Below, in pieces: positions 39,554 to 60,428 of a DNA stretch of 64,000 bases. The stretch is from assembly GCF_000172975.1 (NCBI RefSeq), contig NZ_ABTR02000001.1, positions 1,588,501 to 1,652,500 on the forward strand, in the 5' to 3' direction. The position numbers were made by a program, and so were the translations under genes. The number at the start of each line of letters is the position of its first letter. Position 1 is the stretch's first letter. The DNA comes from Dethiosulfovibrio peptidovorans DSM 11002 (GTDB lineage Bacteria; Synergistota; Synergistia; Synergistales; Dethiosulfovibrionaceae). The notes under the pieces are model-generated. The model saw nothing but the letters and a program-made list of their open reading frames with translations. It was not told where the DNA came from and searched no databases.

Positions 39554-39605
39554 TTCAATAAACGCCGAGGCGTCCCATTAATGGGACGCCTCGGCGTTTA
39601 TTGAA
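39554..39605 (+). terminator. 52-bp perfect palindrome acting as terminator
   Basis: Two 26-base arms with no unpaired loop bases (centre CATTAATG) around 39579/39580. The core is GC-rich and the outer part is A/T-rich (CAATAAACG / CGTTTATTG). It starts 11 bases after the HD-GYP stop. No long T run follows; the arm itself supplies A-rich and T-rich tracts. Confidence 0.8.
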
Positions 39606-39629
39606 GAAGAGTGGCTATGTCTCTATAAT
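39601..39629 (+). promoter_or_regulatory. Candidate promoter of the liv operon
   Basis: TTGAAG (39601-39606) and a perfect TATAAT (39624-39629) are 17 bases apart, 65 bases before the livH start. The -35 box lies on the last bases of the upstream palindrome, so termination and the start of the next transcript share DNA. Confidence 0.6.
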
Positions 39630-39693
39630 ATGTTTTATTGGGGTTTTGCGGCTTGTCAAAATATTGGGGTTTGTGAGCTTGAGGAGGGGGATA

Positions 39694-40560
39694 ATGTATC
39701 TTTTCGCGGAGCAATTATTGAACGGCCTGGCTACGGGGGCGACTTACGCCTTGATTTCACTGGGCCTGGCTTTGGTCTACGGCGTTTTGGGGGTCCTTCA
39801 CGTGGCTCACGCCGGGGTCTATATGGCTGGAGCCTATATCGGAATAGGGGTCTATTCCGTCACGGGCAACATATGGCTGGCGATAATCGTCAGCATGATA
39901 GTATGCGGTTTCATAGGTGTCGCTATAGAGCGGTTGGTTTATTTTCCTCTTTTGAAATACCCGCCTTATGTTCCTCTCATCAGCAGTATTGCCATATTTA
40001 CCGGTATGGAGGAGCTCGTCCGTCTGGTAGCCGGTCCATCGGTGCAGACCTTCTCTCTGGAGCTTCCCTTCCCGAGTTTCGATTTGGGAGGAATTCACGT
40101 TTCGTCCAACCTTATGGGGATATATGTCATAACCGCGGTAGTCTTCTTTATTTTGTGGTTTATCACCACCAAGACCGAGACCGGTCTGGCCATGAGGGCC
40201 GCCTCTCAGGATATGCCTATAGCCGGTGCGATGGGTATAGACAGTCGTTTCATGGTCGATTTCAGTTTCTTCGTCAGTTCGGCCGTGGCCGCACTGGCAG
40301 GGATTTTGGTTGGGATATACTACAATACCGTCTCTCCTGATATGGGAGCCATACCGGCATACAAGGCTTTGGCCCTCATCGTAGTCGGTGGTCTCGGGTC
40401 CGTTCCAGGGGCGGTGGTGGCCTCCCTCTCCCTGGGAGTGGCGGAGACCCTTCTAATAGGCTACGCCGGTATTCCCCTTCCAAGAGATGCCCTTGCCTTC
40501 ATAGCCATGATAGTCGTACTTATGTGGCGTCCTCAGGGTTTGTTGGGAAAACGGGGTTAG
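39694..40560 (+). CDS. livH: Branched-chain amino acid ABC transporter permease LivH
   Basis: 288-residue inner-membrane permease with about eight hydrophobic helices. Typical LivH features: QLLNGLATGATYALISLGLALVYGVLGVLHVAHAG at the N-terminus, GLAMRAASQDMPIAGAMGID near 165-184 (coupling loop), and ALIVVGGLGSVPGAVVASLSLGVAETL near the C-terminus. The ATG at 39694 follows GAGGAGGGGG; the longer frame from 39601 runs through the promoter and is rejected. First of five liv genes. Import of leucine, isoleucine or valine fits amino-acid fermentation, though relatives import amides or urea too. Confidence 0.92.
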   Translation: MYLFAEQLLNGLATGATYALISLGLALVYGVLGVLHVAHAGVYMAGAYIGIGVYSVTGNIWLAIIVSMIVCGFIGVAIERLVYFPLLKYPPYVPLISSIAIFTGMEELVRLVAGPSVQTFSLELPFPSFDLGGIHVSSNLMGIYVITAVVFFILWFITTKTETGLAMRAASQDMPIAGAMGIDSRFMVDFSFFVSSAVAALAGILVGIYYNTVSPDMGAIPAYKALALIVVGGLGSVPGAVVASLSLGVAETLLIGYAGIPLPRDALAFIAMIVVLMWRPQGLLGKRG

Positions 40561-40572
40561 GGGGGTGTCGTC

Positions 40573-41454
40573 ATGAGTTATATAATTACCGTCGCCACTT
40601 TCATCTCCATTCAGGCCATAGTGGCCTATGGATTGAACATAATAGTAGGATACGCCGGACAGATATCTCTGGGACACGCTGCCTTTTTCGGAATAGGTGC
40701 CTACAGCGCCGGATTGTTGGCCACGAAGGCCGGTCTGTCTTTTTGGGCCGCTTTGCCTCTGGTGGTAGCCATATGTGCGGTCATAGGGATAATCTGCGGT
40801 CTTCCCAGTCTTCGTCTAAAGGCGGACTTTTTAGCCATAACCACCATAGGTATAAACTTTATCGTCGAGTCGTTGTTTCTCTACGTGCCCTTTTTCGGGG
40901 GAGCTCTCGGTTTGGGAGGGATTCCCAGAGTGGTCTTTCTGGGCAATAAGCTCAAGGGAGGCGAGTTCCTTACCCTTTGTCTGCTTTTCCTGGCTTTGGT
41001 TATGTTCCTGTCCTGGTGGTTTTCCAGAAGCTGGATGGGGCTGGCCTGCATTTCCCTGAGGGAGGAGGAGACCGCCGCTTCCAGCATGGGGGTCTCTCCC
41101 GTGAAGTTCAAACTGGTGGCCTTCGTCTTGGGGTCGGTGATAGCCGGCATAGGAGGGGCTCTCTACGCTCATCAGATGAGGTTTATCGCTCCCTCCGATT
41201 TCGGTTTCCCCGTTTCCGTCATGCTTTTGTCTCTCATCGTCTTAGGAGGTATGGGTACTTTTTGGGGACCTTTGGTAGGGGCGATCATACTGGGATCCTT
41301 GCCGGAGTTGGCCCGTCCTCTGATGGAGTACAGGATGTTGATTTACAGTCTGTTGCTTTTGGGGATGATCCGCTTTCAGCCCCAGGGATTGCTCGGCGAG
41401 GAGAGCGTGGTCTCCAGGATAATCGGCAGACATGTCGGAGGTGACAGATCATGA
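40573..41454 (+). CDS. livM: Branched-chain amino acid ABC transporter permease LivM
   Basis: 293-residue permease, partner of LivH. It has about nine helices and the blocks YGLNIIVGYAGQISLGHAAFFGIGAYSAGL (residues 22-51, in parts), GLACISLREEETAASSMGVSP, and AGIGGALYAHQMRFIAPSDFGFPVSV, all characteristic. The ATG follows GGGGGTGTC. It starts 12 bases after livH and its stop overlaps the livG start (ATGA). No oddities seen. Confidence 0.93.
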   Translation: MSYIITVATFISIQAIVAYGLNIIVGYAGQISLGHAAFFGIGAYSAGLLATKAGLSFWAALPLVVAICAVIGIICGLPSLRLKADFLAITTIGINFIVESLFLYVPFFGGALGLGGIPRVVFLGNKLKGGEFLTLCLLFLALVMFLSWWFSRSWMGLACISLREEETAASSMGVSPVKFKLVAFVLGSVIAGIGGALYAHQMRFIAPSDFGFPVSVMLLSLIVLGGMGTFWGPLVGAIILGSLPELARPLMEYRMLIYSLLLLGMIRFQPQGLLGEESVVSRIIGRHVGGDRS

Positions 41455-42224
41455 ACGATGTCCTTCTATCCGTGTCCGATCTTTCCAAGCATTTCGGAGG
41501 GTTGAAGGCGGTGGATCGGGTTTCCTTCGAGCTTGAAAAAGGGGAGATCCTAGGGCTGCTGGGGCCCAACGGGGCGGGAAAGACCACTTGTTTCAACATG
41601 ATTTCCGGGGTGTACACTCCCACCGGAGGAAGTATTACCTTCGACGGAGAGCGTACCGACGGAAAGGCCCCTCACGATATGGCAGGTCTGGGAATAGGCC
41701 GGACCTTTCAGATAGTTAAGCCCTTTTCCGGCCTTACAGTGCTGGAAAACGTAGTAGTGGCCTTGGGTATGAGACGTTATCGTAGCCTGTCCAAGACCTT
41801 GGGTCTCTGGGGCAGCCGGTCGGTGAGAGATAGAGCGATGGAGATTCTGGAGAGGGTCAACCTGGGAGGTCATGCCGATAGAAAGGCCTCCGTTCTGCCT
41901 CTTGGAGACCATCGTAGACTGGAGATAGCCAGAGCTCTGGCCCTGGAGCCCCGGTTGCTTCTCTTGGACGAGTCTTTTTCCGGACTTCGACACGAACAGA
42001 TCGGGCGGATGGAGGATCTAGTTATGGATCTCGCCTCCGACGGTATTTCTATACTCTTGATAGAGCACAACATGAAGGTGGCCATGAAACTAAGTCGACG
42101 GATCGTTATCCTCGATCACGGCAGAAAGTTGGCCGAGGGAGAGCCTCAGGAAGTGGTCAAAGATCCCAAGGTCATAGAGGCCTATCTGGGAAAGGGGGGA
42201 TCCGGCGATGTTGCTTCGAATTGA
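41451..42224 (+). CDS. livG: Branched-chain amino acid ABC transporter ATPase LivG
   Basis: 257-residue ATPase of the liv system. Walker A GPNGAGKTTCFN (about 37-48), the LivG-type loop GIGRTFQIVKPFSGLTVLENVVVALG, and Walker B LLLLDESFSGL, where the usual DEP is DES. The signature segment is PLGDHRRLEIARALA instead of LSYGQQRRLEIARAL, lacking the usual SGGQ-like spelling. These two changes are unusual and could affect ATP hydrolysis by this half of the heterodimer. It overlaps livM by 4 and livF by 17 bases. Confidence 0.9.
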   Translation: MNDVLLSVSDLSKHFGGLKAVDRVSFELEKGEILGLLGPNGAGKTTCFNMISGVYTPTGGSITFDGERTDGKAPHDMAGLGIGRTFQIVKPFSGLTVLENVVVALGMRRYRSLSKTLGLWGSRSVRDRAMEILERVNLGGHADRKASVLPLGDHRRLEIARALALEPRLLLLDESFSGLRHEQIGRMEDLVMDLASDGISILLIEHNMKVAMKLSRRIVILDHGRKLAEGEPQEVVKDPKVIEAYLGKGGSGDVASN

Positions 42225-42918
42225 GGATCTTCACATATCCTACGGTCAGGTCCGGGCGGTTCACGGAGTTTCCTTTCACGTGGAGGAGGGAGAACTTGTC
42301 TCCATAATAGGGGCCAACGGTGCTGGCAAGACGTCCATCCTGAACGCAGTGATGGGTATGGTACCCAGTTCGTCCGGTGCGGTGTTCTTGGAGGATCGGG
42401 ATCTTTCGTCCATGCCCTCCCACATGAGGGCCAGAGAGGGCATAAGGATCGTTCCTGAGAGGGCGAGGGTTTTCCCTTGGCTTTCGGTCTACGAGAATCT
42501 TCAGACCGGCATATACGGCATGAGGGATAAGATAGACCTGGAGGAAAAGCTGAGTTGGATATACAGTTTCTTCCCCGTTCTGGAGGAACGGAGGGATCAG
42601 GCAGCTGTGACCCTGTCCGGAGGAGAGCAGCAGCAGCTTTCCATCGCTAGGGCGCTGGTCTCGGAGCCTCGTATATTGCTTGTGGACGAGGTGTCCATGG
42701 GATTGATGCCTATATTGGTGGACAAGGTTTTCGAGGTTTTACAACATCTGAACCGCGAATACGGCCTCACCATCCTGATAGTTGAACAGAACGCCCTGGC
42801 CTCTTTGGAGATATCCCACAGAGGCTACGTGCTGGAGGCGGGGAACCTGGTTATGGAGGGATCCGCCGAGGATCTGATGGAGGATTCCGGGGTTCGAGAG
42901 GCCTATCTGGGTCTCTGA
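42208..42918 (+). CDS. livF: Branched-chain amino acid ABC transporter ATPase LivF
   Basis: 236-residue ATPase of the liv system. Walker A GANGAGKTSIL (34-44), GIRIVPERARVFPWLSVYENL, signature LSGGEQQQLSIARAL with the complete LSGGEQQ sequence, Walker B ILLVDEVSMGLMP (DEV in place of the common DEP). The C-terminal helix and GSAEDLMEDSGVREAYLG are typical. It overlaps livG by 17 bases. Unlike LivG it keeps a full signature motif. Confidence 0.93.
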   Translation: MLLRIEDLHISYGQVRAVHGVSFHVEEGELVSIIGANGAGKTSILNAVMGMVPSSSGAVFLEDRDLSSMPSHMRAREGIRIVPERARVFPWLSVYENLQTGIYGMRDKIDLEEKLSWIYSFFPVLEERRDQAAVTLSGGEQQQLSIARALVSEPRILLVDEVSMGLMPILVDKVFEVLQHLNREYGLTILIVEQNALASLEISHRGYVLEAGNLVMEGSAEDLMEDSGVREAYLGL

Positions 42919-42981
42919 TACCTATAAAGCGTCAGGCTGCTCCTGGGAGCGGTCATATCTACCTTGGAGGTGGTGCGTACC

Positions 42982-44130
42982 ATGAATAAGCTGTTGAAAT
43001 TGGGGTTGTCGATCGTATTTGTCCTTTCCCTGTTGGTGGGATCCGTCTTTGCGGAGGACACCATAAAGATAGGTCTTCTCGCTCCTTTGACCGGAAAAGG
43101 TGCCGATGACGGGATAAACGTCAAAAACTCCGTCGTTATGGCGGTGGAGGAACTGAACGCCTCCGGTGGACTTCTCGGCAAGAAGGTCGAGCTGGTCTAC
43201 TACGACGATCGCAACGAACCCAAAGAGGCTGTGGGATTGGCCTACAAACTGATTGAGAGAGACGAGGTCGTCGGCGTTGTCGGAGGTTCATATAGCTTCC
43301 CGACCAGAGCGGTGGCTCCCATTTTCCAGGAGGAGGAGATCCCCTTTGTCGCCGCCTATGCCCTTCATCCCGACGTTACCGCCGCCGGCGACTACTGCTT
43401 TCGGGTAGGATTCCTCGGAGAGCTCGAGGGCCGTGGATGCGCCTATCTTGCGGTGGAGAAGCTGGGAGCCAAGACGGTTTCTTTGATCCATGCCGACAAC
43501 GATTTCGGCAGGACCCTTTCCACCGGGACCATGGAGTATCTCGAGAAGTACGCTCCTGACGTGAAGGTGCTGTCCGACCAAGCATATCCCTTTGGAGAGA
43601 AGGACTACAAGGCCTATCTCTCCAAGATCAAGGAGGAGAACCCCGACGTAGTCATAGCCAGCGGATACTTCTTCCAGGCCGGACCCATGCTCAAACAGGC
43701 CAGGGAGATGGGCATCACCGCCCAGTTCGTTGGAGAGGAAGGCGCTGACTCGCCGGAAACTCCCAAGATCGCCGGAGACGCTGCTGAGGGCTTCATAATA
43801 GCCACCAATCTGAACAGAGACGATCCCCGTCCCTTCGTTCAGAAGTACCTCAAGGAGTACAAGGAGCGTTTCGAGGTGGATACCTGCATGGTCGGAGCCT
43901 CTGCCTACGATGCCTTCATGGTCCTGGTCAACGGTATAAAGACCGCCGGGACCACCGACGGAGACAAGGTCAAGGATGCCATAGCCAAGTCCGAGGTGGA
44001 AGGGCTTACGGGAACTGCAAAATTCACCGAGACCGGCGAGGTCATCAAGGCACCAGTCGCCCAGATAATCAAGGACGGTCAGTTCCGTTTCTACTGCGAT
44101 ATGGACGACCCCAGGGTGATCGGCCAGTAA
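42982..44130 (+). CDS. livJ: Branched-chain amino acid ABC transporter substrate-binding protein
   Basis: 382-residue periplasmic binding protein of the LivJ/LivK class (type I fold). A signal peptide spans residues 1-24 (MNKLLKLGL, hydrophobic core, VFAED). The mature protein begins TIKIGLLAPLTGKGADDGINVKNSVVMAVEELN and has VELVYYDDRNEPKEAVGLAYKLI and VGVVGGSYSFPTRAVAPIFQEEEIPFVA, all typical. The ATG at 42982 was chosen over an upstream frame because GGAGGTGG is 9 bases upstream. It is the last gene of the operon, with a terminator 20 bases after the stop. Codon use is strongly biased, so it is probably highly expressed. Confidence 0.93.
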   Translation: MNKLLKLGLSIVFVLSLLVGSVFAEDTIKIGLLAPLTGKGADDGINVKNSVVMAVEELNASGGLLGKKVELVYYDDRNEPKEAVGLAYKLIERDEVVGVVGGSYSFPTRAVAPIFQEEEIPFVAAYALHPDVTAAGDYCFRVGFLGELEGRGCAYLAVEKLGAKTVSLIHADNDFGRTLSTGTMEYLEKYAPDVKVLSDQAYPFGEKDYKAYLSKIKEENPDVVIASGYFFQAGPMLKQAREMGITAQFVGEEGADSPETPKIAGDAAEGFIIATNLNRDDPRPFVQKYLKEYKERFEVDTCMVGASAYDAFMVLVNGIKTAGTTDGDKVKDAIAKSEVEGLTGTAKFTETGEVIKAPVAQIIKDGQFRFYCDMDDPRVIGQ

Positions 44131-44149: not shown

Positions 44150-44197
44150 AAGGAGAGGGTCTCCCGTCTATTTTCGACGGGGCCTTCTCCTTTTTTT
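44150..44197 (+). terminator. Terminator of the liv operon
   Basis: Stem with arms GGAGAGGGTCTCCCGTC (44152-44168) and GACGGGGCCTTCTCC (44176-44190), followed by TTTTTTT. Confidence 0.85.
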
Positions 44198-44246: not shown

Positions 44247-44275
44247 TTGATCTGTTAATACCTTAGGTGTAGTAT
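44247..44275 (+). promoter_or_regulatory. Candidate promoter cut off by the IS insertion
   Basis: TTGATC (44247-44252) and TAGTAT (44270-44275) are separated by 17 bases. The predicted start of transcription would be near 44282, only about 8 bases before the IS. It lies after the liv terminator and was probably the promoter of the cyclase operon now 1.4 kb away. Confidence 0.5.
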
Positions 44276-44289
44276 CGGAAAGAACATGA

Positions 44290-45587
44290 GGGCACCTCTA
44301 GCAACCCCATATTTAGCGGTCTAAGCAGACAAAAAAGCCACAGACCAGAAACAGCGACAAATTAGGCTAAATCAGCGTTAAGATGATTCTCTATTGTCGC
44401 TCCGGTGACCTGAACAACTCGGCTTTTACCGTCATTTGGGCACGGCAGATATCGCCCCTGACTTCATCATCAGGAACGAGAATCGAACGATGTTATAGGC
44501 CAGGTTTCTCAGTCCTATAGCGGTTGAAGCTCTGGCTTTCCCGATAGTTCGAACTATCAGGTTGCCGGCCTTCATGGTTTGGGCTCCAAAGACGTGCTCC
44601 ACTCGGCTTCGGACTTTGGATCTTGTTCTGTTACCCTGTTTTTCCCACCACGTGATGGGTTTGCCTCTGTATCCTTTTCGTTGGATCTTCGGTCTGTAGC
44701 CTTGTTCCTCAAGCCAAGAGATTTTCTCATGGCTTCTATAAGCTGAGTCGGCATAGACGTCTTTGCTGCTGTTACTGGGATCGATGAGTTCCTCGAATAC
44801 ATTGCTGTCGTGGACCGATGCCTCGGTTACGCTGTATTTACGGATGATCTTGTTCTGAGAGTCGATCTCTATGTGGTTCTTGTAGCCGAAGGAGCTTTTG
44901 CCGTTTTTCTTCGTCCACCTGGCATCGGTGTCTTTTTGAGATCTCTTGTTGTCGGGCCAGTCTTCCGGTGGTTCTCCATCCTTGATCTTGCGGTTTTCAT
45001 CCCGTTTGTTCCTCTGGATCGGGACCTTCACTATGGAGGCATCCACTATCTGCCCTTTTTTTGCCTCGAAGCCGCTTTTACGGATGTGACCGTCAAAAAG
45101 ATCGAACAGAGGCTTCATCAGTTCCGCCTTGGTCAGCTGCTCCCGAAAAAGCCATATAGTCTTGGCATCAGGGACTTTGGCTTCCAGGGAGAGGCCGAGA
45201 AAACGTCTGAAGGAAAGCCTGTCCCTTACCTGAAACTCCATTGCGTCGTCCGACAGGTTGTACAGTGCCTGAAGCACCAGGATCTTGAACATGAGAAGAG
45301 GAGGGAAGGGCTTTCTTCCTCCCAGAGAATCCTTCTGTCTGAGCCCTTCGCGGAAGTCCTTCAACGGCTGCTCGAAGATGGACCAGTCCACCGCTTTCTC
45401 TATTCGTACCAGTGGATCGTTCACCTTTTCAAGGCTATCGTAGGCTATTTCTTCCGCAAAGAGGCTCCGCTGTTTCAAGGGGATCCCATCCCTTCTCGAG
45501 AATTTTTGGTTACAACCGGTATTTTAACATCCCAGCCTAAACAGGGGTTTTTCTCCCTGCCAGTTAGGGGAGTTTTTAGAGATGCCC
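44290..45587 (-). mobile_element. IS5-family insertion sequence, intact
   Basis: About 1298 bp. Left end GGGCACCTCTAGCAACCCC (44290-44308) and right end, read inward, GGGCATCTCTAAAAACTCC (45587-45569) match at about 14 of 19 positions. The direct repeat ATGA flanks the element (44286-44289 and 45588-45591); it can be read as CATGAG if the ends are one base shorter. One transposase gene fills most of the element on the minus strand. It lies between the liv operon and the cyclase operon. Confidence 0.9.
44432..45478 (-). CDS. IS5-family DDE transposase
   Basis: 348-residue transposase that cuts and joins the element's ends. The N-terminal part MKQRSLFAEE and the helical region GGRKPFPPLLMFKILVLQALYNLSDDAMEFQ lead to the DDE core: GQIVDASIV (first D), KDVYADSAYRS (second D) and RSRVEHVFGAQ (catalytic E), with YGYKNH-like FGYKNHIEID between. 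No frameshift or stop is seen, so the gene looks intact and the element could be active. The insertion is probably recent, given intact ends and target repeat. Confidence 0.93.
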   Translation of the reverse strand: MKQRSLFAEEIAYDSLEKVNDPLVRIEKAVDWSIFEQPLKDFREGLRQKDSLGGRKPFPPLLMFKILVLQALYNLSDDAMEFQVRDRLSFRRFLGLSLEAKVPDAKTIWLFREQLTKAELMKPLFDLFDGHIRKSGFEAKKGQIVDASIVKVPIQRNKRDENRKIKDGEPPEDWPDNKRSQKDTDARWTKKNGKSSFGYKNHIEIDSQNKIIRKYSVTEASVHDSNVFEELIDPSNSSKDVYADSAYRSHEKISWLEEQGYRPKIQRKGYRGKPITWWEKQGNRTRSKVRSRVEHVFGAQTMKAGNLIVRTIGKARASTAIGLRNLAYNIVRFSFLMMKSGAISAVPK

Positions 45588-45655
45588 ATGAGACTTTTGA
45601 GAGAAAAGATGGGTTACGACTTTTTATAATAAGTGATGTTATTGGAGTGATCGTT

Positions 45656-46291
45656 TTGAATGTCGTGGATCTTACTCAGGTCATAAGAGAAGGTATGCCG
45701 GTCTATCCCGGCACCGAACCGCCAAAGATAGTTCAGGCTACAACTGTGGAAAAGGAGGGTTTCGCTGAGAAACTCATAACCATGTTCAGCCATACCGGAA
45801 CCCACATGGACGCTCCCGCCCACATACTGAAGGATGGGCCGACCCTGGACCAGATCTCGGCGGATCGCTTCGTCGGAAGGGCCGTGGTGGCGGATCTTTC
45901 GGACCTGTCGGGGGTCATAGGGCTTTCCGATCTGGAGCGCTACGGCGATGACCTGAAGGGTTGCGACTTCTTTCTTTATCGTACCGGATGGTCCGATATG
46001 TGGGGGGACGCGGGGTACTTCGAGGGATTTCCTGTTTTGTCCACTGAGGCCTGTGAATGGATTGTGGATAAAGGGATAAAGGGTATAGGTGTAGACGCCA
46101 TATCGGTCGATCCCGTGGATTCGCTCGATCTTCCGAATCACAGGGTCTTTTTAGGGGCCGGAATGGTGATAGTGGAGAACCTCACGAGGCTGGAAGATCT
46201 TCCTTCTTCGGTGACCCTGTGCTGTCTTCCTCTGAAAATAGCCGATTCCGACGGTGCTCCCGTCCGGGCGGTAGCTCTGTTGGACTCTTAA
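45656..46291 (+). CDS. Cyclase/arylformamidase family hydrolase
   Basis: 211-residue metal-dependent hydrolase of the kynurenine formamidase-like cyclase family. The signature HTGTHMDAPAH is present near 41-51, with VDLTQVIREGMPVYPG at the N-terminus and VGVDAISVD-like GIGVDAISVDPVDS near 140-153 typical of the fold. Members open amide or lactam bonds such as formylkynurenine or isatin. The TTG at 45656 has GGAG 8 bases upstream. A longer frame back to 44810 passes antisense through the IS and is rejected. It heads a set with an ADC-like and an SDR gene. Substrate unknown. Confidence 0.85.
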   Translation: MNVVDLTQVIREGMPVYPGTEPPKIVQATTVEKEGFAEKLITMFSHTGTHMDAPAHILKDGPTLDQISADRFVGRAVVADLSDLSGVIGLSDLERYGDDLKGCDFFLYRTGWSDMWGDAGYFEGFPVLSTEACEWIVDKGIKGIGVDAISVDPVDSLDLPNHRVFLGAGMVIVENLTRLEDLPSSVTLCCLPLKIADSDGAPVRAVALLDS

Positions 46292-46327
46292 AGTCGTTCT
46301 ATTTTTTTTGCCGTATGGAGGTGAGTC

Positions 46328-47125
46328 ATGAGAGGTCAGTTTCATTTCAAGGATGATTTTGTGTATAAGATGCCGGTTCATTTCTCCGGCCATCCTTTCT
46401 ATCCAGTGAGGGTGGTCTATGGGGATATGACCTGTATCTCCGTGCCCTTCGAGACCGATCCGGAAAGCATCGCCCGGTTTGTTCCGGAGGATTTCGAGCT
46501 GTTGAAACCCAGGGTCGACGTCCAGTATTCAAATTGCCGCGACGTGGACTGGATGGCCGGAGGGGAGTACCGTTTGATCCAGGTCTCCGTTCCCGTTAGA
46601 TATATGGGAAACGGGGAGGGGCTCGTGGGCGATTACGTTTTGGTCATATGGGAGAACAAGGCCTGTCCCATCATAGGAGGCAGGGAGGAGGACGGTATGC
46701 CCAAGCTTTACGCCGATATCCCTTCGGAGCGACACAAGGAGGAGCATTGGTACACGGGAGCTTCCTACGAGGGCTGTACATTTCTCTCAATGGACTTCCA
46801 CAGGCAAGAAGAGGTGGAATTGAAGTCCGGTGCGGTCGAGAATCACCGGGAGATCAACTTCTTCGGCTGGCGATATATTCCCGATCTGGGAAAGGGAGGG
46901 GCTGCCCTCAGCCAGGCGACCCTCTATCCTCAGGAGATGGATGTGGTGCGTATGTGGACCGGAGAGGGAAGCCTTAGTTGGATCGACTTAGGAGCAGAAC
47001 GACATCCAGGGCAGTTTTCCATAATTCACGAACTTGCCCGATTGCCGGTGGTCCGATGGATGGAAGCCTCTATGTTTAAGGGATCCGCCAGGTTAAACGT
47101 GGCCGACTCGAGGGTACTGTCATGA
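46328..47125 (+). CDS. Acetoacetate decarboxylase (ADC) family protein
   Basis: 265-residue protein of the ADC superfamily. Pieces: MPVHFSGHPFYPVRVVYGDMTCISVPFETDPE (residues 17-48, in parts), DYVLVIWENKACPIIGGREEDGMPKLYADI near 103-132 with the position of the Schiff-base lysine (one Lys, PKL, whereas true acetoacetate decarboxylases have KK). Many homologues without the lysine pair act as aldolase-dehydratases or hydratases rather than decarboxylases. It starts 36 bases after the cyclase gene and overlaps the SDR gene by 4 bases. The reaction is not known. Confidence 0.85.
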   Translation: MRGQFHFKDDFVYKMPVHFSGHPFYPVRVVYGDMTCISVPFETDPESIARFVPEDFELLKPRVDVQYSNCRDVDWMAGGEYRLIQVSVPVRYMGNGEGLVGDYVLVIWENKACPIIGGREEDGMPKLYADIPSERHKEEHWYTGASYEGCTFLSMDFHRQEEVELKSGAVENHREINFFGWRYIPDLGKGGAALSQATLYPQEMDVVRMWTGEGSLSWIDLGAERHPGQFSIIHELARLPVVRWMEASMFKGSARLNVADSRVLS

Positions 47126-47928
47126 ACGGATATTACGAGGACAAGGTCGCGGTAGTTACGGGGGCTGCTTCCGGCATAGGACTCGGCCTGACGGAGGGGC
47201 TTCTTTCCAGAGGGGCGAGGGCGGTCTTCATGGCCGATTTTAACGAGGAGAACCTCAGCAGAGAGTCGGGAAAACTGGACGACAGATATCCGGGGCGGGT
47301 CTTCTCCGCCCTTACGAACGTCACGTCTCTAGATCAGGTGAGGCTCGTTCTGGAAAGGGCCAGGGATCTGGACGGACATCTGGACTTTCTGTTCAACAAC
47401 GCCGGTGTCGGCCTGACCTTGCCGGTGGAGAATGTTACCTTCGAGATGTGGCGGTCCGTCGTGGATCTGAACCTCATGGGGGTGGTGCACGGAACCTACA
47501 CTGCAATTCCTATCATGAGGTCTCAGGGCTTCGGACATATAGTCAACACGGGGTCCGTGGCCGGGAAGGTTCCGATACCGTATCAGGCGGTGTACGCCGC
47601 TACCAAGAGCGCGGTCATATCGATGACCGAGTGTCTACAGTACGAGCTGGAGTGCGAGGGGCTGAGTTTCAGCGTGTTCTGTCCAGGGAACGTTCGTACC
47701 GCTATTTTCGACGGTCTCGAGCCTCCGCCGGATTCCATCTCGGTGGACGAAGCGGTGGACTACGTTCTCAATGAGACGAAGGCTAAGTCGTTGAATATAG
47801 TCTTTCCCCAATCGATAAGAGATGTGGATCATCTTTATCGGGAGGACCGTGATCAGTTTGATAAACTGGCCAGAGAGTTGGCCTCGGTTCGTAGGGAGAA
47901 CTACAGGACGAAGGGAACCTATTTTTAG
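47122..47928 (+). CDS. Short-chain dehydrogenase/reductase
   Basis: 268-residue NAD(P)-dependent oxidoreductase. The cofactor loop TGAASGIG is at the N-terminus, NNAG near 91-94, and the catalytic Ser-Tyr-Lys: NTGSVAGKVPIPYQAVYAATKSA includes S, Y156-like tyrosine and the YxxxK lysine. FCPGNVRTAIF follows. DFNEEN after strand 2 favours NAD(H). It is coupled to the ADC-like gene (ATGA) and lies before the duplicated membrane protein. Substrate unknown; the operon hints at a ketone or hydroxy acid. Confidence 0.9.
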   Translation: MNGYYEDKVAVVTGAASGIGLGLTEGLLSRGARAVFMADFNEENLSRESGKLDDRYPGRVFSALTNVTSLDQVRLVLERARDLDGHLDFLFNNAGVGLTLPVENVTFEMWRSVVDLNLMGVVHGTYTAIPIMRSQGFGHIVNTGSVAGKVPIPYQAVYAATKSAVISMTECLQYELECEGLSFSVFCPGNVRTAIFDGLEPPPDSISVDEAVDYVLNETKAKSLNIVFPQSIRDVDHLYREDRDQFDKLARELASVRRENYRTKGTYF

Positions 47929-47946
47929 CATGGGTGGATTTTTTCG

Positions 47947-49116
47947 ATGGATATGAGAGATTTTTTACGGGCTGAGATGGCAGTCTCCACCGAGTCCGCG
48001 GTGCTCCTGACCGCTGGGGTCATTTCCCTGACCGCATCGGCCCTGCTGTTTCCTATATCGAGAGGGATTTTGCCCTACTACGAGAACGGTCTTCTGGGGT
48101 TGCTCATGTTCGTCATGGCGGTGCAGATCATTACTTTGGGGAAGGCCCCTTTTGGAGACGTGGGGCGCGGACCTCTATGGACCGTCCTGGGGGTAGTCCT
48201 GGCCGGGATAGGTGTTGTGACCTGCTTTATCCCCGGTCTGTTTCGCATCGTGCCCAGGTTGGTGCTTCTGGTCTCGATGGGGGTGGGAGGAGCGGCCATG
48301 TTCGTCCGTCTGTGTCTGGACGGTAGGAGGTTGGCGACTTGGTTGAGGCTGGGAGGTGTGTTCGTCCATCTGGCGGCGGCCTGCGGGGCCGCCTATCTGC
48401 TCTCCATGTCGATAGGTCTGTCCCTGTGGTCTCGGGAGTTGCTCTCCGCTCGGCAGTATTCGGTTTTTCTGACGGCCTACGGAGCTTCTCTTGTGTATCT
48501 GGCATTCGTGCTGGTGCCGGTCTATCGGGATCATCCCCCTGCTCGTACTGGAAATCTATCACCGGATAAATCCATGATCCTCCTGGTGGGGGTCTTCATG
48601 GTTTTGCTTGGGGTGCTGCTGATTCCGGTGAGCTTGGGGTTACTGCCCTTTTCCGCAGGAGCTCAGCTCGGTCTGCTGATGGTTATATTCGCCGTACAGA
48701 TGCTGGCTTTCGGCAACACTCCGGTGGGCTCTTTTTCCAGAACCCCGGCGGTTCTTCTCGTTGGGTTGCTCTTCACCGTGTTGGGAACGGCTTCCTGTAT
48801 GGTTCCCGAGCTTCTGGTGCCCTTCTTGACCGTGGCTGTGGGGGTCCTGAACGTGTTCGGCGGGGCGATAGGCATGTTCAAGCTGTGGTCTATAAGGGGA
48901 AGAGGCCCCGATTTTCCCATCTTAAAGAGGTTGGGTAGGGTCCAGGCGGCGGTGAACATGTTCGCGATACTGTTCGGAGCCTCTATGCTGATATCCCGGC
49001 TTCTGTCCGGAACGGTCATAGGGGCTATCTTGAGCCTTAACGGAGCTACCTTGCTCTATCTTCTACATCTGCTGGTGGAAATAGAAAAGATGAGCGGAGA
49101 CCGTCGATCTTCATAG
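47947..49116 (+). CDS. Polytopic membrane protein with an internal duplication
   Basis: 389-residue membrane protein with about ten to twelve hydrophobic helices and no signal peptide. It consists of two related halves: residues about 17-125 and about 205-320 share the order LxPxSxGxLP, a GLLMxxxAVQ helix, GxxPxGxxxRxP and a CxxPxL loop, then a GxxGxxMFxxL helix. The C-terminal half ends in LLHLLVEIEKMSGDRRSS. I recognise no transporter family. GGGTGG lies before the ATG. It follows the SDR gene by 18 bases, so it may move the substrate or product of that set. Confidence 0.7.
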   Translation: MDMRDFLRAEMAVSTESAVLLTAGVISLTASALLFPISRGILPYYENGLLGLLMFVMAVQIITLGKAPFGDVGRGPLWTVLGVVLAGIGVVTCFIPGLFRIVPRLVLLVSMGVGGAAMFVRLCLDGRRLATWLRLGGVFVHLAAACGAAYLLSMSIGLSLWSRELLSARQYSVFLTAYGASLVYLAFVLVPVYRDHPPARTGNLSPDKSMILLVGVFMVLLGVLLIPVSLGLLPFSAGAQLGLLMVIFAVQMLAFGNTPVGSFSRTPAVLLVGLLFTVLGTASCMVPELLVPFLTVAVGVLNVFGGAIGMFKLWSIRGRGPDFPILKRLGRVQAAVNMFAILFGASMLISRLLSGTVIGAILSLNGATLLYLLHLLVEIEKMSGDRRSS

Positions 49117-49134
49117 CGGTCTCCGCTTTTTTAT
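49094..49134. terminator. Terminator after the duplicated membrane protein
   Basis: Arms 49094-49103 and 49117-49126 (GCGGAGACCG / CGGTCTCCGC) followed by TTTTTTATT. The left arm is inside the coding region and the stop codon lies in the loop. Confidence 0.9.
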
Positions 49135-49138
49135 TGGG

Positions 49139-50407
49139 TCATTTGTTTTTGAGCCTTATCGATGCGGCTTTCCCATGAGCCTCAAGCCCTTCGGCCTTGG
49201 CCATGGCTTCGGCGACTGGAGCGAGCCGCGCTACTCCCTCCGGGGTCATCCTCTGAGATGTGCAGATCTTAGTGAATGTCCCGACCCAGACCCCGCCTGT
49301 GTAGCGAGACGCCCTGAGAGTGGGCAGGGTATGGTTGCTGCCGGATACGTAATCTCCGAACACCTCGGCGGACATCTCCCCGATGAACAGGGCTCCGTAG
49401 TTCGTCAGTGCCGGTATGAGGGTTTCCGGGTCTTGGACGACCAGTTCCAGATGTTCCGGGGCATAGCGGTTCGATATCTCACAGGCCTGTTCCAGCGAGT
49501 CTACTATGATGATCTCGCCGTTTTCTCGCCAGGCTCTTCCGGCCATCTCGGCGGTGGCGAGGTCCTTCAGCTGTCTTTCCACCGCCGAGGCCGTGGCCTT
49601 GGCGATGTCCTCGTCTGTACACAGAAGAATTCCCCTGGCGTTGAGGTCGTGCTCCGACTGTGCCAGTATGTCCGCCGCCAGTATCTCCGGATTGGCGCTT
49701 TCGTCGGCTATTATGAGCACCTCGCTGGGGCCCGCCACGAAGTCTATACCCACCTGGCCGTAGCACTGTCTTTTCGCTTCCGTGACGTAGCGGTTTCCGG
49801 GGCCGGCTATGACGTCCACCGGGGCTATCTGCTCGGTGCCGAACGCCATGGCGGCTATGGCCTGAGCTCCGCCTACCGCGTATATTTCGTCCACTCCCGC
49901 TATGGAAAGGGCAGACAGGGTCGCTGGGTGGATTTTATCGGTGCCCTTCATGACAGGAGAGCAGGCCACGATTCTCTTAACCCCTGCGACCGAGGCCGGT
50001 ATGGCCAGCATGAGGGCGGTGGAGAAGAGGGGATAACCCCCTCCCGGGACGTAGCAGCCGCAGGATTCAACCGGGATGGCCCTGTGTCCCAGAAAAACGC
50101 CGGGCGATAGTTCCTGCTCCGGTAGGTCCGTCAAGGTCTCCTTCTGCCTTTCGGCGAAAGCCCTTATGTTGTGTGCGGCGGTCTTTATGTGATCGAGCAG
50201 AGAGGTATCCACCTCTTCGATCGCCGCTTGGATTTCCTCGTCCGTAATCCTGAAGGACGATCTCGACGATAGATCAAAACGATGTCCGTATTCCAGAAGG
50301 GCCGAGTCGCCTCTCTCTCTGATAGTTTCTACGATGGCTGCAACGGAGGATGTCAGCTCCCCTTTTCCCTCCGGCCTTTTGGGCAGGGCCTCTTTAACAT
50401 GATACAT
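49139..50407 (-). CDS. hisD: Histidinol dehydrogenase family protein (stand-alone)
   Basis: 422-residue zinc-dependent NAD dehydrogenase. HisD oxidises L-histidinol to L-histidine in two steps. Zn ligands Q250, H253, D352 and H411 and the catalytic pair E318-H319 (YAPEHLEL) are present. The region around 368-388 (RYTGGVWVGTFTKICTSQRMT) differs from biosynthetic HisD and resembles stand-alone relatives, some of which oxidise sulfopropanediol or other alcohols. The ATG at 50407 follows GAGGAGGAC 6 bases away. It is beside hutG with no other his biosynthesis gene in sight, so a catabolic role is suggested, perhaps feeding histidinol to the hut pathway. Confidence 0.88.
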   Translation of the reverse strand: MYHVKEALPKRPEGKGELTSSVAAIVETIRERGDSALLEYGHRFDLSSRSSFRITDEEIQAAIEEVDTSLLDHIKTAAHNIRAFAERQKETLTDLPEQELSPGVFLGHRAIPVESCGCYVPGGGYPLFSTALMLAIPASVAGVKRIVACSPVMKGTDKIHPATLSALSIAGVDEIYAVGGAQAIAAMAFGTEQIAPVDVIAGPGNRYVTEAKRQCYGQVGIDFVAGPSEVLIIADESANPEILAADILAQSEHDLNARGILLCTDEDIAKATASAVERQLKDLATAEMAGRAWRENGEIIIVDSLEQACEISNRYAPEHLELVVQDPETLIPALTNYGALFIGEMSAEVFGDYVSGSNHTLPTLRASRYTGGVWVGTFTKICTSQRMTPEGVARLAPVAEAMAKAEGLEAHGKAASIRLKNK

Positions 50408-50479
50408 ATCCAGTCCTCCTCGTCGAGAATCTTTATCGTGGTAGTATAGCGCCACGTTCAAGTATGCTCAAGGAGAAGT

Positions 50480-51457
50480 TTAGCCTCTTTCTCTGAATCC
50501 CTTGCAGAACCAGAACAGAGTTGAGGCGCAGAGGGCGGCGGTTCTTCCTCCCTCGTCCAGGGGGGGGGACATCTCCATTATGTCCAGATATTTTATCCTG
50601 TCGGTCCTTCCTGCCAGGTAGGCCACTCTTTCCAGCTCCGGGGCCTTGAAACCTCTGGGGTTGCTGGCCGACGCTCCGGGGGCCTCGTGGCTGCGGACCG
50701 AGTCGATATCTATCGACAGGGCCACCGCTCTGGTACCGTCGCAGGCTACCCGACTGGCCTCCAGAAAGTATTCCATCGGTCTAGTCCCGACGGAGCTGAG
50801 GGTCAGCACGGTGGCTCCTTTGTCCTTAACCCACCTGTAGTAATGGGGCGAGTTGTATTGTTCCTGTATGCCGAACTCGACGAAGGATCGCCCAAGTAAG
50901 GCTCTGTCGGGCAGTTCCTCAAGAGCCCTGCGAAAGGGGGTTCCGCTGGTTATGCCGTGGCTCATATCCCTGACGTCCAGGTGGCTGTCCACGTTTATCA
51001 CTCCCAGCTGTCCTTCCCTAAGGCTCGATCCCTCCACCAGGCCGAGCAGCCCGGGGTAGGTGAGGTCGTGGCCTCCTCCTAAGACCACCGGGAAAACCCC
51101 GGTGGAGACGATCTTTCTTACCGTCTCAGTGAGGTTTATGTGGGTTTCGGCCAGGTCGTCTCCTATGGGGATATCTCCCAGATCCACCATGGAGACGTCG
51201 CTTACGTCAACCCCGAACCCCGGAGTCAGGCGATAGAAGGACCGGCGGATGGCCTCCGGGCCTAGAGCGGCTCCCTGTTTGCCTCCGTTGGCCTTTATTC
51301 CCCTGTCCTCCGGTACTCCTAACAGGGCTATCTGGGCCGATTTAAGGGCTTCGTCGATATCCCTTGAAACCGGTTTTACGAGGTCTCCCAGTCTAGGGTC
51401 CATGGGGTCGTCTCTGCTGTAGAAGAGTTCCGGTTCCGGCGGTATCATCGATAGCAT
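50480..51457 (-). CDS. hutG: Formimidoylglutamase / ureohydrolase family enzyme
   Basis: 325-residue arginase-fold enzyme with a two-manganese site: GGGHD (about 127-131), NVDSHLD (DSHLD for the usual DAHxD) and SIDIDSV. Beside the hut genes it most likely hydrolyses formiminoglutamate to glutamate and formamide, although the ftcD genes upstream give a folate route, so the two might overlap. The ATG at 51457 has GGAGGG 7 bases upstream. It is separated from hutU by a terminator and precedes hisD by 72 bases. Agmatinase or guanidinobutyrase activity is also possible. Confidence 0.82.
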   Translation of the reverse strand: MLSMIPPEPELFYSRDDPMDPRLGDLVKPVSRDIDEALKSAQIALLGVPEDRGIKANGGKQGAALGPEAIRRSFYRLTPGFGVDVSDVSMVDLGDIPIGDDLAETHINLTETVRKIVSTGVFPVVLGGGHDLTYPGLLGLVEGSSLREGQLGVINVDSHLDVRDMSHGITSGTPFRRALEELPDRALLGRSFVEFGIQEQYNSPHYYRWVKDKGATVLTLSSVGTRPMEYFLEASRVACDGTRAVALSIDIDSVRSHEAPGASASNPRGFKAPELERVAYLAGRTDRIKYLDIMEMSPPLDEGGRTAALCASTLFWFCKGFRERG

Positions 51458-51485
51458 GTTCTTTCCCTCCGATATTTTTTTGCCT

Positions 51486-51525
51486 TTAAAAAGGGAGAGG
51501 CACCCTCGGTCGGGTACCTCTCCTG
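51486..51525 (-). terminator. Terminator after hutU
   Basis: Arms 51493-51505 and 51512-51523 (GGGAGAGGCACCC against GGGTACCTCTCC) with a T-run on the minus strand (TTTTTAAAGG). It separates hutU from hutG. Confidence 0.85.
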
Positions 51526-51547
51526 CTATTTTCGTATGTCTTGGACT

Positions 51548-53578
51548 TTATTTCTTCTTCCAGGCGTCGTCCACCACCGAGCTTACTAGGTCGGTATCGG
51601 GGATGTAGGGCAGGGTTATGTGGTAGTCTCCACTGTATTTTTCGTTGACCTCTCCGCTGACCTCTATGGCGTGGTCGCAGCGGGCCCATGCTCTTCGGGC
51701 CACTCCGCCGAGGACGTCCCACATCATGGCGGACTTGAGGATCTCGTCGGTTCTCTCCGATCCGTCTAGGACCATTCCGAATCCTCCGTTGATGACCTTT
51801 CCTATTCCCACTCCTCCGCCGTTGTGAAGGGCGCAGAGGGTCATCCCTCTGGCGGCGTTTCCGGCGAAGCACTGGGTGGCCATGTCGGCGCAGATGTTGC
51901 TGCCGTCCTTTATGTTGGAGGTCTCCCTGTAGGGGGAGTCGGTTCCCGATACGTCGTGATGGTCTCTTCCGAGCATGACTGGACCTATCTCTCCCTTGCG
52001 TACCATCTCGTTGAACTTGAGGGCGATGTTAGTCCTTCCCTCGGCGTCCTGGTAGAGGATCCGGCACTGGGTTCCCACCACCAATTTGTTCTTCTCCGCA
52101 TCTCTGATCCAGATCCAGTTGTCGTAGTCCTGGGCCCTGCGGTTAGGGTCGATGCAGTCCATGGCGGCTTTGTCGGTCTTGCGAAGGTCTTCGGGGTTTC
52201 CGCTGAGGCAGCACCAACGGAAGGGGCCGTAGCCGTAGTCGAACAGGACCGGTCCCATGATGTCCTCGACGTAGGAGGGCCATATGAAGCCGTCGTGGGT
52301 GTCCTTGCCGTTTTTGCATATCTCCGTTACCCCGGCGTCGTAGACGGCTCTCATGAAGGAGTTGCCGTAGTCGAAGAAGTAGGTTCCCTTGGCCGTGAGC
52401 TTCTTTATGACCTGGTAATGTCTGCGCAGGGTCTCGTCCACCTTCTCGCGGAATTTTTCCGGAGCGTCGTGGAGCATGGCGGTGCGTTCCTCGAAGGTCA
52501 TGCCCGCGGGGCAGTAGCCTCCGTCGTAGGGAGCGTGGCAGGATGTCTGATCCGAGAGAAGGGGAATCTCTATGCCTTCTTTGTCCGCATACTCCAGCAG
52601 GTCCACTATGTTACCGTGATATGCGATGGAGAGAGGTTCCTTTTTCTCCATCGCCTCTTTGGCCATGGAGAAGGCCTCCTCGCAGGTCTTAGCGACTCGG
52701 CTGACCCAGCCCTGGCTGTGGCGGGTCTCTATGCGGGAGTAGTCCACCTCGGCGACGATTCCCACCCCTCCGGCGATCTCGATCGCCTTGGGCTGGGCTC
52801 CGCTCATGCCTCCCAGTCCGGAGGAGACGAACAGGATGCCGGCCAGGTTTTCCTTGGGGCCGACTCCCAGCCTCTGTCTGGCGGCGTTGAGGACGGTGTT
52901 GAAGGTTCCGTGGACGATTCCTTGGGGACCGATGTACATCCATCCGCCGGCGGTCATCTGGCCGTAGTTGGTAACTCCCAGCTGCATTCCCCTGTGCCAT
53001 TCGGCCTGGTTGTCGAATATGCCGATCAGGAGTCCGTTGGTGAGGATTACCCTGGGCGCATCGGGCTTGGATTTGAACAGTCCAAGAGGATGGCCGCTTT
53101 CCAGGACGAGGGTGGTGTCCTCGGTAAGCTCCTCAAGATATTTCTTTATGAGCCTGTACTGTAGCCAGTTTTGACATACCTGTCCGGTCTCTCCGTAGGT
53201 GACCAGCTCGTAGGGGTAGAGAGCTACGTCGAAGTCCAGGTTGTTGTCTATCATAACCTGGAAGGCCTTGCCGGCAGTGCACTTGCCCTTGTACTCGTCT
53301 ATGGGTTTGCCGTGGAGCTCTCCGGCCGGGCGATATCTGTAGGCGTATATCCGTCCCATGGTGCGAAGCTCCTCCATGAACTCGGGAGCCAGCTTTTCGT
53401 GAAGCTCCTTGGGGACGTAACGGAGGGCGTTTTTGAGAGCCAGCTCGGTCTCGGCCTTGCTGAGGTTCCAGCCCCTGTCGGGGGCACGGCGGATACCTTT
53501 GGCAAAATCGGGATACTCGGGAAGCTCGTTTCCAAGCTTTATGGTCATGGTTTTCTCTGTCATCTGGTTATAGTCCAT
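51548..53578 (-). CDS. hutU: Urocanate hydratase
   Basis: 676-residue enzyme that adds water to urocanate to give 4-imidazolone-5-propanoate. It uses tightly bound NAD. The NAD loop SSGLGGMSGAQPKAIEIAGG is near 222-242, and CPAGMTFEERTAMLHDAP and GRDHHDVSGTDSPYRETSNIKDGS are typical. The protein is longer than the roughly 555-residue form of Pseudomonas and Bacillus; its length matches the long form also found in animals. GGAGGTATTC precedes the ATG. It follows the cyclodeaminase gene by 72 bases. Confidence 0.96.
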   Translation of the reverse strand: MDYNQMTEKTMTIKLGNELPEYPDFAKGIRRAPDRGWNLSKAETELALKNALRYVPKELHEKLAPEFMEELRTMGRIYAYRYRPAGELHGKPIDEYKGKCTAGKAFQVMIDNNLDFDVALYPYELVTYGETGQVCQNWLQYRLIKKYLEELTEDTTLVLESGHPLGLFKSKPDAPRVILTNGLLIGIFDNQAEWHRGMQLGVTNYGQMTAGGWMYIGPQGIVHGTFNTVLNAARQRLGVGPKENLAGILFVSSGLGGMSGAQPKAIEIAGGVGIVAEVDYSRIETRHSQGWVSRVAKTCEEAFSMAKEAMEKKEPLSIAYHGNIVDLLEYADKEGIEIPLLSDQTSCHAPYDGGYCPAGMTFEERTAMLHDAPEKFREKVDETLRRHYQVIKKLTAKGTYFFDYGNSFMRAVYDAGVTEICKNGKDTHDGFIWPSYVEDIMGPVLFDYGYGPFRWCCLSGNPEDLRKTDKAAMDCIDPNRRAQDYDNWIWIRDAEKNKLVVGTQCRILYQDAEGRTNIALKFNEMVRKGEIGPVMLGRDHHDVSGTDSPYRETSNIKDGSNICADMATQCFAGNAARGMTLCALHNGGGVGIGKVINGGFGMVLDGSERTDEILKSAMMWDVLGGVARRAWARCDHAIEVSGEVNEKYSGDYHITLPYIPDTDLVSSVVDDAWKKK

Positions 53579-53650
53579 GTTAGAATACCTCCAAGTTCTT
53601 CAATGTCGTCGTCGGAGTTTCCTTGGTCGGGGCTCCGGCGATTTTTTTAT

Positions 53651-54280
53651 TTAGCTTATGGCGGCCTCGACTGCTTTCTCTATCGACGCAGACCCCTCCT
53701 CGATGAGCTTCAGGGTTTTCTCCATGTCGACTTTGGTCTTGTCGGCGAAGGCCTTGTCTTTGAGGCCCATCAGGTTGATCTTGACGTTGTAGGAGGCCGC
53801 TACCGCCGCGGCTCTGGCGAGGACGGCGGCGGATCCGGCGTCGGTGATCGCGTTGGAGTTGCCCTTTTCGCAGGCGATCTTGGCCAGCTCCATCATGTCC
53901 AGACACTTGGTCATGGTCTCGAAGGGAACCTCTATGGCCTTCTTCGTTGCCTGCTGTATGGCCTCGGAACGGGCTGCCTTCTCCTCGTCGGTTCCTTTGG
54001 GCATCTTGAGTGCCGCCATGAACAGGTTGAAGGCTTCCGTGTCTTTCTCCATCAGGTCCAGGAAGGTCCGGTGGAGCTCGTTGCCGTCGGAGCGGACCTT
54101 TTCCATCGCATCCCAGTTGTCCCTGTATTTTTCCTTGCCTACGGTCAGACTGGCGACCATGGAGCTGAGGGCGGCTCCCAGAGATGCGGCCAGAGCCGCT
54201 ACGCTGCCCCCTCCGGGAGCGGGAGAGTCGGAGGCTAGCTCCTCCACGAATCCTTTTACAGTAAGTTCGGAGAGTTTCAT
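53651..54280 (-). CDS. fchA: Formiminotetrahydrofolate cyclodeaminase / cyclohydrolase
   Basis: 209-residue helical enzyme of the FTCD_C family. It releases ammonia from 5-formimino-tetrahydrofolate to give 5,10-methenyl-THF; some homologues act as methenyl-THF cyclohydrolase. Markers: FVEELASDSPAPGGGSVAALAASLGAALSSMVASLT (residues 11-46, in parts), ATKKAIEVPFETMTKCLDMME and NSNAITDAGSAAVLARAA. It works with the separate formimidoyltransferase encoded upstream; in animals the two are fused. AAGGGG precedes the ATG. Confidence 0.9.
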   Translation of the reverse strand: MKLSELTVKGFVEELASDSPAPGGGSVAALAASLGAALSSMVASLTVGKEKYRDNWDAMEKVRSDGNELHRTFLDLMEKDTEAFNLFMAALKMPKGTDEEKAARSEAIQQATKKAIEVPFETMTKCLDMMELAKIACEKGNSNAITDAGSAAVLARAAAVAASYNVKINLMGLKDKAFADKTKVDMEKTLKLIEEGSASIEKAVEAAIS

Positions 54281-54305
54281 TTAAAAGACCCCTTTCTTTT
54301 CGTTT

Positions 54306-55550: not shown

Positions 55551-55552
55551 CT

Positions 55553-56470: not shown

Positions 56471-56503
56471 GGTTTTCCCTCCTGATATTTTAGGGCTAGA
56501 TCG

Positions 56504-57235: not shown

Positions 57236-57327
57236 GCGGACCTCCAAAAATGGGACAGATTGTCTCAAATGTGACTACCCATAAATTAGCCCATTCCCGA
57301 TGTCTTGTCAATAAGGACGGTCGTGCC

Positions 57328-57362
57328 AAAAAGCCCGGACCTTTAAGGGCCCGGGCTTTTTC
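57328..57362 (-). terminator. Terminator after the YuiF-type permease
   Basis: AAAAAGCCCGG (57328-57338) faces CCGGGCTTTTT (57351-57361). It closes the hutH-permease transcript and insulates it from the IclR gene. Confidence 0.85.
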
Positions 57363-57401
57363 TTGGAGAGGTTCGTCTCGTTTGTACGTTTTTATCTCAA
57401 A

Positions 57402-58712: not shown

Positions 58713-58815
58713 GGTGACGTCCCCCTTAGTCTTTTTTTCTTTTTGAGACGAACCGTATAAGAGTCACCTTTTAGGTGTCTCGTTCCAACGTCATCGTGCC
58801 GTTCTTGGGTCTGTA

Positions 58816-60348: not shown

Positions 60349-60428
60349 TTTGCTCATTGCCTCCCCCAAGTATTTGGTATAGTGGCCATTTTACAAAAAA
60401 CAACACAACGAAGTGATCCACTTGAACC

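Follow-up and report, generated by a model that had tools for sequence, protein, structure and literature searches.

A window of 64,000 nucleotides from Dethiosulfovibrio peptidovorans DSM 11002 (contig NZ_ABTR02000001.1, positions 1,588,501 to 1,652,500 of the forward strand; coordinates below count from the first letter of the window) carries four neighboring genes, which encode a metal hydrolase of the Cyclase family, an enzyme like acetoacetate decarboxylase (ADC), a short-chain dehydrogenase/reductase (SDR), and a membrane protein. The last three form a conserved triad, here also called the cassette, from which the cyclase is excluded. The four genes are as follows.

45656-46291, + strand: cyclase gene, an open reading frame with a TTG start and GGAG 8 bases upstream, encoding a Cyclase-family metal hydrolase of the kynurenine-formamidase fold
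46328-47125, + strand: ADC-like gene, first gene of the triad, encoding a Schiff-base enzyme with Lys126 as the predicted Schiff-base lysine
47122-47928, + strand: SDR gene, second gene of the triad, with a 4-base ATGA overlap with the ADC-like gene
47947-49116, + strand: membrane-protein gene, third gene of the triad, encoding an internally duplicated protein of 2 x 6 transmembrane helices

The gaps between successive genes are 36, -4, and 18 bases. A reading made from the DNA letters alone (the sequence-only reading) had named the enzyme families, and Pfam matches confirmed them as Cyclase (PF04199, E 1.9e-34), ADC (PF06314, E 7.5e-40), and adh_short (PF00106, E 4e-45). Ratios of nonsynonymous to synonymous substitution rates (dN/dS) relative to two sister genomes were 0.095-0.096 for the cyclase, 0.088-0.144 for the ADC-like gene, 0.180-0.183 for the SDR, and 0.126-0.145 for the membrane protein; two transporter genes taken as a comparison gave 0.019-0.092. 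With values of 0.088-0.183, all four therefore look like real, working genes under purifying selection.

Co-occurrence and gene order in Synergistota

Co-occurrence was analyzed by Fisher tests in 185 Synergistota genomes. At an E-value of 1e-60, 46 genomes had the membrane protein, 39 the ADC-like enzyme, and 42 the SDR. Low-identity matches were dropped before counting (ADC-like below 53%, in G121, G163, G165, G167, and G168; SDR below 63%, in G121 and G165), which left 46 genomes with the membrane protein, 40 with the SDR, and 34 with the ADC-like enzyme. The overlaps were 39 genomes for membrane protein and SDR (p 1.2e-31), 33 for SDR and ADC-like enzyme (p 1.7e-28), and 32 for membrane protein and ADC-like enzyme (p 1.4e-22). 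Occurrence was thus nested, the membrane protein being the most common, followed by the SDR and then the ADC-like enzyme. The sole genomes with an enzyme gene but without the membrane protein were G028 and G038, in both of which the contig stops at the cassette.

Gene order was examined in 38 regions from 33 of the 52 genomes with an ADC-like or membrane-protein gene, picked at about one to two per genus. An ADC-like match was present in 27 of these regions, and in every one of the 27 a same-strand SDR gene adjoins it (25 with the ADC-like gene first and 2 with the SDR first). The SDR and membrane-protein genes are neighbors in 25 regions, in line in 15, facing in 9, and in 1 with the membrane protein before an SDR of 39% identity. 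In G025 and G029 the enzyme pair and the membrane protein lie on separate contigs. Scanning 84,980 species genomes gave 38 loci, many of them in genomes already in the Synergistota set. The SDR gene comes after the ADC-like gene in 35 loci and before it in 1 (L136), and it was unseen in L131, at a contig end, and in L134; the membrane protein is present in 31.

The cyclase behaved differently. At an E-value of 1e-20 it was found in 38 of the 185 genomes, independently of the triad: 10 of the 46 membrane-protein carriers, 8 of the 40 SDR carriers, and 4 of the 34 ADC-like carriers have it (p 0.83, 1.0, and 0.24, respectively). Beyond the window, it adjoins the triad only in the two sister genomes (L061 and L062) among the 38 regions. 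The sequence-only reading had treated the four genes as one set and proposed looking for the same neighbors in other genomes; the set holds, and the adjacency recurs, for the ADC-like enzyme, the SDR, and the membrane protein but not for the cyclase.

Several individual regions deserve mention. In one genus (regions L078, L079, L172, and L173) an aldo-keto reductase gene precedes the cassette, and three of these regions have universal-stress genes and a 2-hydroxyacid dehydrogenase gene after it; an ADC-like gene is present only in L079. The triads of L073 and L074 are nearly identical though their genomes are assigned to families f10 and f3, suggesting recent transfer or a mis-binned contig. 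In a region with no ADC-like match, the SDR gene adjoining the membrane protein (L080:12027-12827, genome G138) has an in-frame TGA, as in a decaying cassette.

Occurrence in other phyla

Outside Synergistota, ADC-like carriers were found in 9 of 103 Thermotogota genomes and 10 of 50 Atribacterota genomes, and in all 19 the ADC-like, SDR, and membrane-protein genes stand in the same order and on the same strand. An eleventh Atribacterota match, an 87-residue ADC fragment at a contig end (L161), was left out of this count. Trees of the three proteins, with 35 rows each, were concordant in well-supported groups, and two Thermotogota rows (L129 and L130) were nested within an Atribacterota group in all three. 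L106 and L108 stood outside the 35 rows, their membrane-protein or SDR matches being too short. Given the concordant trees and the nested Thermotogota rows, the simplest account would be that the whole cassette moved between phyla as a block.

One Dehalococcoidia contig (L106) also carries the cassette. It may be mis-binned, because it is short and because the other 17 matching genomes among 400 Chloroflexota have only distant ADC-like genes. These 17 genes were found besides the cassette contig of G187. In 11 of the 12 examined, a same-strand SDR gene immediately precedes the ADC-like gene, which is 25-31% identical to that of the window. The low identity of these SDRs to the window SDR (25-30%) suggests that dehydrogenases and ADC-like enzymes came to be paired on more than one occasion. 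In 4 of 7 larger Chloroflexota regions a gene of one cluster lies downstream of the ADC-like gene, and the copy tested was of the major facilitator superfamily (MFS) type.

ADC-like genes on plasmids adjoin genes for transport of the ATP-binding cassette (ABC), tripartite ATP-independent periplasmic (TRAP), or tripartite-tricarboxylate type. The Agrobacterium copy lies behind ABC permeases and overlaps a gene of the hydroxyacyl-CoA-dehydrogenase type. In two other plasmid regions the neighbor is a fumarylacetoacetate-hydrolase-type gene in one and a "transporter" in the other.

The cyclase and the surrounding genes

Features around the four genes are as follows.

39601..44130, + strand: ABC transporter of the branched-chain-amino-acid type (permeases, two ATPases, and binding protein)
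44162..44182, + strand: terminator-like hairpin after the binding-protein gene, parting the ABC genes from the cyclase unit (consensus match only)
44291..45586, - strand: IS5-family insertion between the ABC transporter and the cyclase, with its transposase at 44432-45478 on the minus strand
49115..49127, + strand: terminator-like hairpin closing the transcription unit after the membrane-protein gene (consensus match only)

Within the genus, the cyclase is universal (7 of 7 genomes) and the triad is limited to 3 genomes. Three of the four that lack the triad (G109, G110, and G111) have the cyclase 21-34 bases behind an HD-domain gene. In the window, the ABC transporter and the IS5 element stand between the corresponding HD-domain gene (38286-39539) and the cyclase. 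From this synteny, either the cyclase predates the transporter and triad at the locus or the relatives have lost both of the latter together. We read the cyclase as a separate and apparently older resident of the locus rather than as part of the triad. In other genomes, its flanks hold pyridoxal phosphate enzymes, a flavin adenine dinucleotide oxidoreductase, a pilin-like protein, and a glycyl-radical enzyme, with no consistent partner among them.

Counterparts of the ABC binding protein at 98-99% identity were confined, within the 14 genomes of the family, to the three that carry the triad; the best match after these was 32% identical. Because these three carriers are close relatives, the link between binding protein and triad is one event and not three. 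All five transporter genes occur near a triad, besides the two sister regions, only in L074 among the 38 regions, at 29-50% identity. We considered the importer as a part of the triad; outside the genus this is unsupported, and within the genus the two may be linked.

The IS5 element comprises 1296 bases with no counterpart in the sister region L061. It is bounded by a 6-base target duplication, CATGAG, at 44285-44290 and 45587-45592, and has imperfect ends, GGCACCTCTA/GGCATCTCTA. This strain-specific insertion may separate the four genes from their promoter here. A scan for sigma-70 promoters returned no site reaching the threshold; inspection by eye alone picked out a weak TTGATC-17-TAGTAT near 44249-44277, which is of better quality in L061. 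Terminator-like sites are weak evidence alone, as 11 were found and 7.2 expected. In the other sister region, L062, a flagellin-like gene of 653 residues (L062:5119-7077) lies in the corresponding transporter-cyclase interval.

The close same-strand spacing of the four genes and the terminator-like sites before and after them would fit a single pathway, in which the cyclase opens a lactam, amide, or other ring, the SDR and the ADC-like enzyme degrade the resulting acid, and the membrane protein imports the substrate; so would the restriction of the branched-chain-type importer to the triad carriers of the family. In this genus the cyclase and the triad probably share a transcript; elsewhere the triad does without the cyclase. 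We nevertheless judge the four-gene pathway very unlikely, in view of the independence of cyclase and triad over 185 genomes, the four genomes of the genus that keep the cyclase without the triad, three of them with the cyclase directly behind the HD-domain gene, and the confinement of the shared arrangement to the window and two sister genomes. Given this independence, a ring-opening step would fall outside the conserved system, and breakdown of a ring or amide compound, as the sequence-only reading had it, finds no support as a function of the conserved genes.

Directly downstream of the four genes lies a histidine-degradation cluster on the minus strand (49139-60369). Its first part encodes a histidinol-dehydrogenase (HisD) homologue, an arginase-family enzyme, urocanase, an FTCD C-domain, an amidohydrolase, and an FTCD N-domain; the rest encodes an IclR regulator, a Na+/H+-antiporter-type protein, and an aromatic-amino-acid-lyase protein of the histidine ammonia-lyase type. 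A HisD homologue inside such a cluster seems unusual; the matches in G109 and G111 have one in-frame TAG.

Protein features, proposed function, and known systems

The ADC-like protein scored 137.4 bits with PF06314 (gathering threshold 29.8), and all 24 of its Foldseek matches at E <= 0.001 belong to the ADC superfamily. Lys126 is invariant in the 28 and 27 rows of two alignments, lies within the motif GGREEDG-x-PK, and aligns with the lysine of 3C8W. The next residue is Leu, Ile, or Val in all 27 rows of alignment A5, which bears out the earlier description of an ADC-fold enzyme with a single lysine. With the curated family of true acetoacetate decarboxylases (NF002614) the protein scored 49.8 bits against a cut-off of 150. 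The structural model has a moderate mean predicted local distance difference test (pLDDT) score of 80.7, falling below 50 in residues 114-119 just before Lys126.

In the SDR, the catalytic tetrad Asn117, Ser145, Tyr158, and Lys162 and also Asp39 are invariant in alignment A4. The window protein has the glycine-rich cofactor motif TGAASGIG and classifies as a classical SDR. An aspartate at the position of Asp39 favors nicotinamide adenine dinucleotide (NAD) in SDRs, and the sequence accordingly favors an NAD-type enzyme. Scores with the curated 3-hydroxybutyrate dehydrogenase families were 132.6 bits against 258 (NF009093) and 129.5 against 307 (TIGR01963). The C-terminal tail, ENYRTKGTY, is nearly invariant.

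The membrane protein had been described as duplicated, with ten to twelve helices. In a two-sequence comparison its halves were 31% identical over 187 columns (E 4e-24), and the model has 12 long helices arranged as 2 x 6 (mean pLDDT 85). No Pfam or NCBIfam model matched the window protein, and the PDB held no sequence relative at E 1. We regard it as a putative transporter, possibly of the substrate or product, and it may serve uptake, as the sequence-only reading proposed. It has also been weighed as an HdeD-like stress or membrane-associated protein, with the enzymes making or removing a membrane-soluble ketone or alcohol. Nine of 26 relatives match DUF308 weakly (best E 0.00044), universal-stress genes stand behind the triad in one genus, and some genomes keep the membrane protein but not the enzymes, as this alternative would have it; the window protein itself has no DUF308 match, and its hhalign comparison with E. 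coli HdeD gave a non-significant probability of 0.2%. Identity with HdeD/DUF308 thus found weak backing and no confirmation, and we consider the alternative as a whole improbable.

The gene set is co-inherited and its catalytic residues are conserved; as to reaction, direction, and transport, we infer the following. The SDR would use NAD to oxidize a hydroxy acid, probably a β-hydroxy acid, to a keto acid. Lys126 of the ADC-like enzyme would form a Schiff base with the keto group, leading to loss of CO2 or to carbon-carbon cleavage by a retro-aldol reaction and yielding a ketone or a smaller keto compound, while the membrane protein would carry substrate or product. That the triad is a conserved, horizontally exchanged cassette in which the SDR oxidizes a hydroxy acid, the ADC-like enzyme decarboxylates or cleaves, and the 12-helix protein carries is, in our estimate, about an even proposition. 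The recurrent pairing of ADC-like genes with dehydrogenase and transporter genes elsewhere is the main support for oxidation followed by action on the keto group, and the earlier suggestion of a hydroxy or keto product seems chemically plausible.

A number of observations weigh against this scheme. Glu61, Glu76, and the neighboring Lys116 are important residues in true acetoacetate decarboxylase. Profile alignments with 3BH2, which we take to be the Clostridium acetobutylicum enzyme, and with 3C8W from Legionella place Gln66 opposite Glu61 and Leu83 opposite Glu76, and the position of Lys116 is taken by Leu/Ile/Val127 in the ADC-like family. No certain placement was obtained in these alignments for an equivalent of Arg29, and there is no conserved arginine there. 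As the two glutamates are absent, decarboxylation is not assured. The fold search of the membrane protein gave no significant match to a solved transporter, with 0 of 262 matches at E <= 0.001. The SDR and membrane protein occur without an ADC-like gene in 7 of 40 genomes, and the membrane protein occurs without a close SDR in 7 of 46, one of which (G019) has the adjoining 39% SDR; thus, the membrane protein may also serve independently of the enzymes. Its gene faces the other two in the 9 of 25 regions noted above and is therefore not always co-transcribed with them. Finally, the flanking genes change from genus to genus, and among 30 flanking proteins scanned none recurred across genera to name a pathway.

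The missing glutamates also speak for an aldolase-type function. ADC-superfamily members such as MppR perform other lysine chemistry (PMC10367076; PMC7820114). If the ADC-like enzyme worked as MppR or the Streptomyces and Swit_4259 aldolase-dehydratases do, it would join or split a keto acid and an aldehyde via Lys126, the SDR would reduce or oxidize the product, and the direction might be synthetic. In Foldseek, MppR and the aldolase-dehydratases were nearly as close (E about 1e-13 to 3e-15) as the true decarboxylases (1.8e-16). Saccharolobus ADC-like proteins are described in PMC7820114 as strongly induced with a phenol-degradation cluster, and a retro-aldol role was proposed for them. A profile search at E <= 0.1 nevertheless found 3c8w, 3bgt, and 3bh2 but not MppR or Swit_4259, and the company that ADC-like genes keep in other phyla, with dehydrogenase and transporter genes, suggests catabolism. 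We consider the aldolase-type function a serious rival, if a somewhat unlikely one.

A bolder reading is of an undescribed catabolic module that anaerobes of the Synergistota, Atribacterota, and Thermotogota exchange as a unit and that comprises a new ADC-fold subfamily with lysine chemistry other than acetoacetate decarboxylation, a dedicated NAD-dependent SDR, and a new carrier family of two six-helix copies; we place this reading a little short of even probability. Should the module handle one compound, that compound would provide a substrate for a branch of the ADC superfamily with a solved structure (3CMB) and a role for a membrane-protein family whose window member matches none of the Pfam and NCBIfam models. 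If true, it would explain a trait apparently exchanged by anaerobes across phyla. The nested occurrence of membrane protein, SDR, and ADC-like enzyme makes the order of steps testable.

The set matches no known pathway, as the sequence-only reading had also concluded, and literature searches, with thin coverage of subscription journals, found no paper on it. The cassette is a new combination of known enzyme superfamilies with a membrane protein of no known family. The neighboring cyclase (119.3 bits with PF04199, gathering threshold 23.1) has the motif HTGTHMDAPAH, fitting HxGTHxDxPxH, and shares this metal motif and its sequence family with kynurenine formamidase and isatin hydrolase cyclases (1R61, 4CZ1, and 5NMP). 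It differs from arylformamidase (KynB, TIGR03035) in scoring well under the curated cut-off (104.3 versus 223 bits).

The solved SDR closest to that of the window is D-3-hydroxybutyrate dehydrogenase (2YZ7), with 33% identity over about 230 residues. The substrate-binding residues of D-3-hydroxybutyrate dehydrogenase are Gln94, His144, and Lys152, where the window SDR has Gly97, Ala147, and Gln155.

With the true acetoacetate decarboxylases (3BH2, 3BGT, and 3C8W) the ADC-like protein shares the fold and a GRE-x(4)-PK-type motif with the Schiff-base lysine. It differs from them in an identity of only about 18-22% and in the replacement of Glu61, Glu76, and the second lysine described above. MppR, the Streptomyces bingchenggensis aldolase-dehydratase, and Swit_4259 have the superfamily fold in common with it at 14-16% identity, with no profile match at E 0.1. 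The closest solved relative is 3CMB, an "acetoacetate decarboxylase" of Methanoculleus marisnigri known as a structure only (42% identity, Foldseek E 3.8e-29), which has the same lysine and, like the window protein, a leucine in place of Glu76.

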